DNA of 64,000 nt. Source: Kiloniella sp. EL199. GTDB lineage: Bacteria > Pseudomonadota > Alphaproteobacteria > Kiloniellales > Kiloniellaceae. The stretch is taken from assembly GCF_900313065.1 (NCBI RefSeq), contig NZ_OMPU01000014.1:239612-303611 (forward strand). The letters are read 5' to 3'. Positions within the stretch are counted from its first letter, which is position 1. Each line of letters starts with the position of its first letter. A model generated the notes under the pieces. That model was not told the origin of the DNA and ran no database searches. It saw only the letters and a list, made by a program, of their open reading frames with translations. Positions 22,227 through 24,618 of this stretch are shown here, piece by piece. Made by a program: the position numbers and the translations under genes.

Positions 22227-23171
22227 ATGTCCGAAACCCACCGCACCAAAGTACTGATTATCGGTTCTGGCCCCGCCGGTTATACCGCCGCCATCTATGC
22301 AGCGCGCGCGAACCTGGAGCCAATTCTGGTTCAGGGCCTGCAGCCCGGCGGCCAGCTGACGATCACCACAGAGGTCGAAAACTACCCCGGGTTTGCAGAC
22401 GTTATTCAAGGCCCGTGGTTAATGGAACAGATGCAGAAGCAGGCTGAGCACGTTGGCACAAAAATGCATTTTGATATTATTAATGAAGTCAACTTTGATG
22501 AACGCCCCTTTGTCTGCACAGGCGATAGCGGCAACAGCTACGTTGCCGATACAGTCATCATCGCGACCGGGGCTCAGGCACGCTGGCTGGGGCTGCAAGG
22601 GGAAGAAACATACAACGGGCGCGGTGTTTCCGCTTGTGCAACCTGTGACGGCTTTTTCTATCGCGGCAAAGAAGTTGCCGTTATCGGGGGCGGGAACACC
22701 GCTGTCGAAGAAGCCCTCTATCTTGCGAATATCTGTTCCAAGGTAACACTGGTTCATAGAAGAGACGCCCTGCGGTGTGAAAAGATCCTCGAAGATCGCC
22801 TGTTGAAAAATGAAAAAATCGATATTCAGTGGAACAAAGTTGTTGATGATGTCTTGGGCACGCCGACAGATGGCGTAACAGGTCTGAAGCTAAGAGATAC
22901 TCAGAATGATTCATTCTCTGAGCTTGATGTCAGCGGCATGTTTGTGGCCATCGGGCACGATCCTGCGACAGCAATCTTCAAGGGCAAGCTGGATCTGGAT
23001 GACGAAAACTACATTCTGGCAACCCCCGGCACGGCAACAACCAATGTTCCCGGTGTTTTTGCGGCAGGTGACTGTGTCGACAAAATTTATAGACAGGCCG
23101 TAACCGCCGCCGGAATGGGCTGTATGGCTGCACTGGAAGCAGAACGCTATTTGACTGAAATGAATGACTAG
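22227..23171 (+). CDS. trxB: Thioredoxin-disulfide reductase
   Basis: A 314-residue FAD/NADPH flavoenzyme that reduces thioredoxin. The FAD-binding [15 protein letters not shown] (13-27), the redox pair Cys137/Cys140 in [11 protein letters not shown], the NADPH-binding [13 protein letters not shown] and the C-terminal [22 protein letters not shown] are all present. The length equals the usual low-molecular-weight TrxB. It is followed by a terminator and then by a VtlR/LsrB-type regulator, an arrangement found in many alphaproteobacteria and linked in Sinorhizobium to redox responses. Confidence 0.96.
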
Positions 23172-23401: not shown

Positions 23402-24337
23402 TTGTCAGAGGGCACAAAACGCCGGAGTGGCCTGAAAGCATCGATTATGGACTGGGATAAGCTGCGTATTTTTCACGCCGTTGCCGAAGCCGGAAGCTTT
23501 ACCCACGCCGGGGAGCAACTGAACCTCAGCCAATCAGCCGTCAGTCGACAAATCTCTGCTCTGGAAGACAGCCTCAAGGTATCTCTTTTCCATCGCCATG
23601 CGCGCGGGCTGATCCTGACGGAACAGGGGGAACTCCTTTACAGAACGGCTCATGATGTCTTTGGCAAACTTGCCATGACAGAGGCACAGCTAACCGAGAG
23701 TAAAGACCGCCCCAAAGGCCCACTTAAGATCACAACAACCGTTGCTTTTGGCTCAACATGGCTCTCACCGCGCCTGCACGAGTTTATTGATCTCTACCCG
23801 GATGTCGAAGTACAGCTTATTCTATCAGACAAAGAGTTGGATCTTTCCATGCGCGAAGCTGATGTCGCCGTGCGTCTGCATCCGCCAAGACAGGCCGACT
23901 TGATCCAGCGGCACCTGCTCACAGCCCAGATGCATATCTATGCATCCGCCAGCTATATTAAGAAATATGGCATGCTGCGCACTGTCGAGGAAATCTCTGA
24001 TCACAGGCTCGTTGTTTATGGCGACGATACAAAACCGCCGCTACCAGATATCAACTGGCTCTTACATGTGGGAACCGAAGGTCGTGGACTGAGACGTGCA
24101 TCCATGGCGATTAATAACATCTATGCCATTATGAAGGCTGTGCGCTCTGGTGCAGGTCTGGGGGCGCTTCCTGACTTTATGACACAGGAATCAAGCGATC
24201 TCGTACAGGTATTACCAGAGGTTGAAGGACCTCAATTCGACGCCTACTTTGCCTATGCCGAGGAAATGAGATCATCAAAACGAATTGCCATTTTCCGCGA
24301 TTTCCTATTACGCAAGGTCGCAGAATCAAAATTCTAA
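23402..24337 (+). CDS. LysR-family regulator of the VtlR/LsrB type
   Basis: A LysR regulator whose winged helix (MDWDKLRIFHAVAEAGSFTH, then LNLSQSAVSRQISALEDSL) is close to the VtlR (Brucella) and LsrB (Sinorhizobium) group. In those bacteria it controls small RNAs of the AbcR family, DUF1127 proteins and redox genes. The frame opens at TTG 23402 with GGGAG about 8 bp upstream (311 residues); an ATG at 23447 gives the family's common N-terminus MDWDKLR but lacks a clear Shine-Dalgarno. It lies downstream of trxB, and a structured small RNA gene begins about 150 bp after its stop. Confidence 0.87.
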   Translation: MSEGTKRRSGLKASIMDWDKLRIFHAVAEAGSFTHAGEQLNLSQSAVSRQISALEDSLKVSLFHRHARGLILTEQGELLYRTAHDVFGKLAMTEAQLTESKDRPKGPLKITTTVAFGSTWLSPRLHEFIDLYPDVEVQLILSDKELDLSMREADVAVRLHPPRQADLIQRHLLTAQMHIYASASYIKKYGMLRTVEEISDHRLVVYGDDTKPPLPDINWLLHVGTEGRGLRRASMAINNIYAIMKAVRSGAGLGALPDFMTQESSDLVQVLPEVEGPQFDAYFAYAEEMRSSKRIAIFRDFLLRKVAESKF

Positions 24338-24382: not shown

Positions 24383-24399
24383 TATGCACATAATGCATA
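24383..24399. promoter_or_regulatory. Inverted repeat upstream of the sRNA gene
   Basis: TATGCA (24383-24388) and TGCATA (24394-24399) flank 5 bp, a size close to a LysR T-N11-A box. It lies about 90 bp before the predicted sRNA start, a reasonable position for activation by the adjacent LysR regulator. Confidence 0.4.
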
Positions 24400-24450
24400 T
24401 CGGCACTGTAATAATGTAAATCGACATCCGCAAAAAAAATGCTACATTCA

Positions 24451-24480
24451 TTGTCATCAGATGTTGCGTTGCAATATCTA
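24451..24480 (+). promoter_or_regulatory. Probable promoter of the sRNA gene
   Basis: TTGTCA (24451-24456) matches a -35 box, and ATATCT or TATCTA (24474-24480) lies 17-18 bp further as a weak -10. Transcription would begin near 24487. Confidence 0.5.
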
Positions 24481-24486
24481 CTTTGA

Positions 24487-24618
24487 CTGGCTGTTGAGCT
24501 TGCTCCGGCTGGTCTGTTTCCAGGCTCCGGCCTGGGGGTCTTCGGACCCCACGTCTCCCAGACGTGAAGCCTCCCTGTTCAACTTGCCCCCAAGACATTG
24601 TTCTTGGGGGTTTTTTTT
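24487..24618 (+). ncRNA. Structured small RNA, possible AbcR/alpha-r15-type sRNA
   Basis: About 130 nt of highly structured G/C-rich sequence sits in an A/T-rich gap and ends in a strong terminator. GTTGAGC (24492-24498) can close with GTTCAAC (24577-24583). Inside lie AGGC/GCCT, a GGGGTC-UUCG-GACCCC hairpin (24535-24550) and an ACGTCT-CCC-AGACGT hairpin (24551-24565). C-rich, ribosome-binding-site-like stretches CUCCC and CCUCCC are in a loop and a single-stranded joint. In rhizobia and Brucella, AbcR (alpha-r15) sRNAs lie beside the VtlR/LsrB gene and use such C-rich loops with Hfq to block ABC-transporter mRNAs. The position and layout match; primary sequence identity was not tested. The 5' end is approximate. 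Confidence 0.65.
24587..24618 (+). terminator. Rho-independent terminator of the sRNA
   Basis: CCCCCAAGA (24587-24595) pairs perfectly with TCTTGGGGG (24602-24610), 6-nt loop, followed by eight T. Confidence 0.93.

Follow-up and report, generated by a model that had tools for sequence, protein, structure and literature searches.

A predicted small RNA behind an LsrB/VtlR-type lysR gene of Kiloniella, AbcR-like in position and in predicted targets

AbcR has been studied mainly in rhizobia, Agrobacterium, and Brucella. In the window, the whole stretch of 64,000 nucleotides of Kiloniella sp. EL199 that was analysed, a sequence-only reading had pointed to an RNA-like block in the gap after a VtlR/LsrB-type gene, and had left two possibilities, an AbcR (alpha-r15) RNA or a new sRNA with the same position. 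The locus raises the question of what this RNA is, what would control it, and on which mRNAs it would act. Our main reading, to which we give a probability of roughly 0.75, is that 24455-24618 encodes a LysR-activated sRNA of ~163 nt which would silence the mRNAs of ABC and TRAP solute-binding proteins by means of CCUCCCUGUU, an AbcR-like RNA of a different sequence family.

The RNA block behind lysR

The gene order in the window is trxB, lysR, the RNA block, and a Sel1-repeat gene, the last of which was absent at that place in most of the relatives examined. The gap of 447 bp was recovered as described, from the stop of lysR (24337) to the next ATG (24785), with an alternative longer reading of the downstream gene from 24749. 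The features of the locus are the following.

22227..23171, + strand: trxB, thioredoxin reductase, the gene that precedes lysR in Rhizobiales too (NCBIfam TIGR01292 above cut-off; trxB-lysR order in relatives)
23402..24337, + strand: lysR, LsrB/VtlR-type regulator of 311 aa, no cysteine (best PDB match 9hh1; cysteine scan)
24384..24398, + strand: LTTR-type box ATGC-N7-GCAT, containing T-N11-A, centre at about -64 to the predicted start (recurrence upstream of RNAs against shuffles)
24421..24448, + strand: predicted promoter TCGACA-N16-TACATT, between box and RNA (consensus scan, near shuffle expectation and not significant alone)
24455..24618, + strand: predicted small RNA of ~163 nt (folds, conservation; 5' end placed from promoter and hairpin)
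24459..24479, + strand: 5' hairpin with GATGTTGC-type palindrome (motif in 22 of 30 loci of the order; fold)
24485..24514, + strand: second hairpin, variable between families (fold; two-sided changes within Kiloniella at one pair)
24536..24549, + strand: P3 stem with UUCG loop, GGGUC-UUCG-GACCC (sequence, fold, compensatory changes in other families)
24550..24566, + strand: hairpin whose loop holds part of CUCCCA, the same sequence as motif M1 of AbcR (near-invariant in 35 sequences)
24570..24579, + strand: open seed CCUCCCUGUU between the CUCCCA hairpin and the terminator (unpaired probability; kept in 32 of 44 class-wide matches)
24586..24618, + strand: intrinsic terminator with eight T (sequence; stem letters vary and are still paired in relatives)

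The elements named by the sequence-only reading were all present in the sequence: the UUCG hairpin, CUCCC at 24555-24559 (as CUCCCA at 24555-24560, inside its hairpin), CCUCCC in the joint at 24570-24575, and a terminator with a perfect stem of 9 bp, formed by CCCCCAAGA (24587-24595) and UCUUGGGGG (24602-24610), with eight T at 24611-24618. The fold of 24487-24618 had an energy of -60.8 kcal/mol and a z of -4.02, and none of 200 shuffles was as good; with the 5' part included (24460-24618) the z was -5.56, again with none of 200 shuffles as good. The nested stems that had been reported exist in the short fold, but open into separate hairpins when the 5' part is included. In the predicted fold the seed region was exposed, with a mean unpaired probability of 0.91 over 24571-24580. 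Position 24487, formerly taken as the start, falls inside the RNA, whose 5' end is probably some 30 nt further upstream, near 24455, judging from the promoter-like hexamers at 24421-24448 and the recurring 5' hairpin at 24459-24479. The sequence of this hairpin (GATGTTGCGTTGCAAYATC) forms a nearly perfect palindrome that many loci of the order retain, and it could also act as a binding site for a protein.

By blastn with a query of 134 bases, the RNA block was matched in all 41 genomes searched from the order (our own and 40 relatives, with 19 genera and 8 families), the assignment of the relatives to Kiloniellales being inferred from the named Kiloniella genomes, whose lysR products were 87-99% identical to that of the window. 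Across 35 distinct sequences, the part from the CUCCCA hairpin through the terminator was nearly invariant, and where letters of the terminator changed the pairing was kept. Upstream of the CUCCCA hairpin the sequence diverges between families, and the P3 stem is kept by compensatory changes, with variants that differ on both sides (AGGGCCUCC/GGAGGUCCU, AGGGCCUGC/GCAGGUCCU, AGGGCCUUC/GAAGGUCCU, and AGGGCCCGC/GCGGGUCCU); this comparison searched for pairing, so the stems are selected ones, another stem or none was chosen in a few loci, and it is the two-sided letter differences that count. Conservation of the stems in relatives was found for both P3 and the terminator.

A covariance model of the 3' module (R1; 69 positions, 13 pairs) matched 197 of 385 alphaproteobacterial genomes (E <= 0.01), belonging to 140 of 276 genera. 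In our own genome a second R1 match was counted at this threshold. Among the matches listed, the RNA was present in 131 genomes and lysR in 150, with 106 in common, and in 84 of these 106 the RNA was on the strand of lysR and began 150-486 bp downstream of it (median 216). In the other 22 it was located 0.6-6 kb after lysR (13 genomes), on another contig (6), or far away (3; G025, G338, and G415). Forty-four genomes had lysR and no RNA among the matches listed; 40 of their loci were examined, G201, G225, G240, and G419 being omitted for having lysR near a contig end. R1 matched behind lysR in 15 of the 40 (17 matches, E <= 1e-6), and 25 gave none at that threshold, several of the latter showing other C-rich hairpins and terminators. 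Three R1-negative loci with the box (L121, L130, and L142) had, behind lysR, longer RNA-like stretches bearing CCUCUCCCC and CUCCUCCCC motifs, which are perhaps further RNA forms in the same slot. Among 44 class-wide R1 matches, CCUCCCUGUU was exact in 32, CUCCC was found in 41, and CUCCCA in 31. Tandem copies were also seen, two in G008 (L006 and L043) and three in L147 (G378), which recalls AbcR1/AbcR2.

The regulator and the upstream box

The best PDB match of the lysR product of the window was 9hh1, with 332 bits over residues 15-307, against 117 bits for the next one. This entry is the LsrB of A. tumefaciens (PMC11975290). By sequence orthology, and with trxB as neighbour, the product is an LsrB/VtlR ortholog, and the proposal of a likely small RNA adjoining such a gene outside Rhizobiales was borne out in Kiloniella. 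The lysR product was found in 216 of the 385 alphaproteobacterial genomes (E <= 1e-75), an observation at odds with a section heading of a 2025 paper, "LsrB is a LTTR unique to Rhizobiales" (PMC11975290). In A. tumefaciens, LsrB is described as a redox switch acting via C144 and C273 (PMC11975290). No equivalents of these residues were found in the LysR protein of the window, nor any cysteine in its entire sequence; therefore a redox switch of the A. tumefaciens type cannot work in the same way here.

Of the 40 RNAs of the order, 39 had the box ATGC-N7-GCAT upstream, as did 32 of the 44 matches from the class, compared with 0.8% of shuffled upstream regions; the other 12 class-wide RNAs had no exact box upstream. 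When the 450 bases that follow lysR were searched for the exact dyad, it was present in 34 of the 38 loci from the order, in 13 of 15 class loci with the RNA, and in 15 of 41 further loci, but in just 1 of the 12 loci from Rhizobiales (1-2% in shuffles). Two Rhizobiales loci, L046 and L047, were read by eye and had GCATAGCTGCAAT instead of the dyad, which fits the published LsrB-binding box GCAT-N3-TG-N3-T (PMC7486931). The box of the window reads GCAT-N3-GG-N3-T, and keeps the dyad ATGC-N7-GCAT instead. In the abcR1 promoter of S. meliloti the LsrB motif is given at -61 to -49, and T-N11-A is cited as the general LysR-type signal (PMC8844928).

In G025, where the RNA is located ~3 Mb from lysR, it has its own box (L074) and there is no box after lysR (L073). 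Seven RNA copies that were separated from lysR by more than 10 kb, or were not on its contig, were examined; four had the box (L074, L085, L089, and L093) and three lacked an exact one (L082, L090, and L094). No second R1-type RNA was found at the box sites elsewhere in our own genome (best 7.6 bits). One of these box copies, at L157 (G000:C8:60886), adjoins ~1 kb without an ORF of at least 90 codons, and no R1-type RNA was found there.

Predicted targets of the open seed

The complement of the seed, AACAGGGAGR, occurred 21 times in our own genome, one of them being the RNA itself, against 10 occurrences of the reversed pattern. A site was considered at start position when a start codon followed 3-11 nt after it and opened an ORF of at least 80 codons, a rule that also admits internal and antisense frames (e.g., L252, L288, and L319), which were retained in the denominators. 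Five of the 20 non-self sites were at start position, 5-7 bases before the start codon, and four of the five genes encoded periplasmic substrate-binding proteins: SBP_bac_1 (L168 and L179), DctP (L182), and NMT1 (L183). The fifth was a class-II fructose-bisphosphate aldolase (L176). The control for the flanks took sites with the same GGGAGR and other flanks, in our own genome only (56 sites listed, 55 distinct). Three of the 55 were at start position, one of these inside a gene, and one belonged to a substrate-binding protein (L227). The difference was significant both for the start position (5/20 versus 3/55, Fisher p 0.028) and for substrate-binding proteins (4/20 versus 1/55 sites, Fisher p 0.016).

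Five relatives of four families (G003, G015, G024, G025, and G036) were examined as well, with 75 seed-complement sites against 18 for the reversed pattern. Seventy-four of the 75 were read, four being the RNA itself, and the remaining one is by its place the RNA of G003. Of the 70 other sites, 29 were at start position, and 17 of these 29 genes encoded substrate-binding proteins according to Pfam: SBP_bac_5 (L257, L269, and L324), DctP (L258, L274, L291, L311, L316, and L320), NMT1 types (L259 and L263), SBP_bac_8 or SBP_bac_1 (L275, L276, L304, L306, and L323), and Peripla_BP_6 (L277). Another start-position gene, L321, encoded a LivG-type ATPase by Pfam. When G003 was excluded, being of the same genus and having as targets orthologs of those in our own genome, the proportion was 14 of 25, in four other genera.

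As background, 111 genes of our own genome (55 from the window and 56 at control places) were compared with the target set by phmmer, which may miss some, and 3 of them proved to be substrate-binding proteins. No substrate-binding-protein family was among the 25 commonest Pfam families listed in the background check. Against this background, the Fisher p was 2e-5 for 4/5 targets in our own genome and 5e-10 for 14/25 in the relatives. None of the 11 SBP_bac_5 genes of our own genome was among the five with an exact complement; therefore only part of the importer genes fit. The duplex energies of the whole module failed to separate the targets (-17.8 to -26.2) from genes of the window (best -24.5 and -24.2).

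Considering these results together, the mechanism that we propose would begin with LysR binding the box ATGC-N7-GCAT and activating the promoter, from which the RNA would be transcribed. The RNA, probably with Hfq as putative partner, would then pair CCUCCCUGUU with the ribosome-binding sites of importer mRNAs, with which CUCCCA perhaps pairs too. Such pairing would block translation, as AbcR1/2 do in S. meliloti (PMC8844928).

Relation to AbcR and SorX/SorY

At gathering scores no Rfam family was found in the window, 6S RNA included, and riboswitch, cis-attenuator, 6S RNA, and other Rfam families were set aside for lack of a family at cut-off. Nor were the RNAs of 20 class loci named at gathering scores, the single hit being int-alpA, elsewhere in L094. 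On the gap, the scores below threshold were 28.1 bits for anti-hemB, 27.5 for mmgR, 26.4 for a betaproteobacterial sRNA, 23.5 for NsiR1, 19.9 for SorY, and 17.9 for SorX. With mmgR (RF00519, listed as suhB) the RNA shares a hairpin, a CUCCCU joint, and a terminator, but its score is below the cut-off of 41 and the alignment is mainly CUCCCU and the terminator.

Alpha-r15 has been described for Rhizobiaceae and Brucellaceae (PMC3712013), and AbcR has been called conserved throughout the class Alphaproteobacteria (PMC5461406). The ar15 model (RF02345) was not among the hits in the window (gathering scores), in the gap (E <= 10), or in 21 genomes of the order, this last search having matched none of its 14 control genomes either. 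It gave 27-31 bits, below the cut-off of 40, in 4 of 13 comparison genomes, three of these beside lysR (L150, L151, and L153). By the covariance model of the family the RNA of the window is not alpha-r15, with no ar15 control genome scoring above the cut-off, and the membership that had been contemplated was not supported. With R2, a covariance model built on the AbcR core and of poor predicted structure, nothing was found in the 385 class genomes or in the 40 loci behind lysR, an empty outcome that carries no weight as to whether the two RNA types exclude each other.

The likeness to AbcR is nevertheless considerable. The RNA occupies the slot after trxB-lysR, which is the AbcR position (PMC7486931), and it has a terminator, an LTTR signal upstream, and tandem copies in some genomes. 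The C-rich loops, likened to those of AbcR by the sequence-only reading, include CUCCCA, the motif M1 of AbcR (PMC5461406), in a hairpin. Both RNAs have two anti-Shine-Dalgarno motifs (for AbcR, PMC5461406 and PMC8844928), which in AbcR1/2 of S. meliloti silence transporter mRNAs, LsrB driving AbcR1 (PMC8844928), and ABC importers are targets in both, by prediction only for the RNA of the window. The differences are found in the joint, which holds CCUCCCUGUU where AbcR has as second motif M2 GUUCCC or aSD2 UUCCCCUC, absent here, in the box, where the TG of LsrB is replaced, and in the lack of an ar15-model hit.

CCUCCCUGUU is shared with the Rfam consensus lines of SorX (RF02784) and SorY (RF02651) of Rhodobacter, which limit the import of spermidine and malate (PMC5036791), with control of takP described too (PMC6238624); importer control is again a likeness by prediction only on the side of the window. 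SorX differs in its origin, cut from an ompR-type 3' UTR (PMC8625941), versus a place beside lysR. The RNA of the window scored below the Rfam cut-off for both, and the best relative reached 44.1 bits for SorX (cut-off 46.6). Behind the lysR of L147 there are three consecutive R1-type RNAs, and the first, with 53.3 bits for R1 and these 44.1 for SorX, combines the CUCCUCCC loop, the aSD1 of AbcR, with an R1-type module. The RNA thus resembles AbcR in predicted function, shares its position, and is closer to SorX/SorY in sequence. The alternative of a new sRNA in the same position fits best, except that the spread is far wider than expected and the predicted targets are of the AbcR kind. The best reading is that the RNA belongs to an ancient, undescribed, class-wide family without an Rfam model at cut-off; a description of it or of its exact core strings was not found in the open-licence literature searched.

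Taking into account the shared slot after trxB-lysR, the identical CUCCCA, the same predicted target class, and the mixed composition of the first RNA of L147, the RNA might be a true alpha-r15/AbcR by descent that diverged beyond the family model. We regard this as unlikely, given the missing ar15 hits in the window, the gap, and 21 genomes and the absence of M2 (GUUCCC); moreover, AbcR-like RNAs scored no more than 8-17 bits with R1, owing to the terminator, and the best score of the AbcR-core model in the window, 10.5 bits, fell outside the RNA. It is far less probable still that the block is nothing more than the 3' UTR and terminator of lysR, or a cis-acting leader. The block does stand directly behind lysR on the same strand, and SorX, to which it is related in motif, is processed out of a 3' UTR (PMC8625941), but a box and a promoter-like sequence lie between lysR and the RNA, copies away from lysR exist, some with the box, and the following gene is not kept.

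Two further explanations accept the RNA and dispute its control or its action, and we give low odds to each. The box could serve autoregulation of LysR or another factor, with LysR not controlling the RNA: its binding is a prediction, the dyad departs at TG from the published GCAT-N3-TG-N3-T (PMC7486931), and the exact dyad follows lysR in only 1 of 12 Rhizobiales loci. Against this, the dyad contains T-N11-A (PMC8844928), is placed near -64 between lysR and the RNA, and in G025 accompanies the RNA and not lysR. As for the action, solute-binding-protein genes might merely favour AACAGGGAG as ribosome-binding site, the RNA acting elsewhere, and the background set and the flank control each come from one genome; yet the bias extends to the AAC flank, beyond the ribosome-binding core (5/20 versus 3/55 at start position), and the complementary seed is kept over the class (32/44). 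An RNA activated by LysR and directed to importer mRNAs is accordingly the reading that we prefer.

Regarding the origin of this arrangement, we propose tentatively, and at somewhat less than even odds, that there was one ancestral LsrB-sRNA pair silencing solute-binding proteins, early in Alphaproteobacteria, of which AbcR and SorX/SorY would be local descendants and the Kiloniella type the widespread and least changed form, with a regulator without redox sensing by cysteine. If our reading is true, an LsrB-type regulator and its sRNA partner are spread over much of Alphaproteobacteria, in a circuit reaching far beyond Rhizobiales, and the original job of the pair would be the tuning of nutrient import, virulence and symbiosis being later uses. 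Two RNA lines described separately, AbcR and SorX/SorY, would be tied to a single genomic slot and a single class of targets, and a searchable RNA family missing from Rfam would become available together with its candidate target genes.
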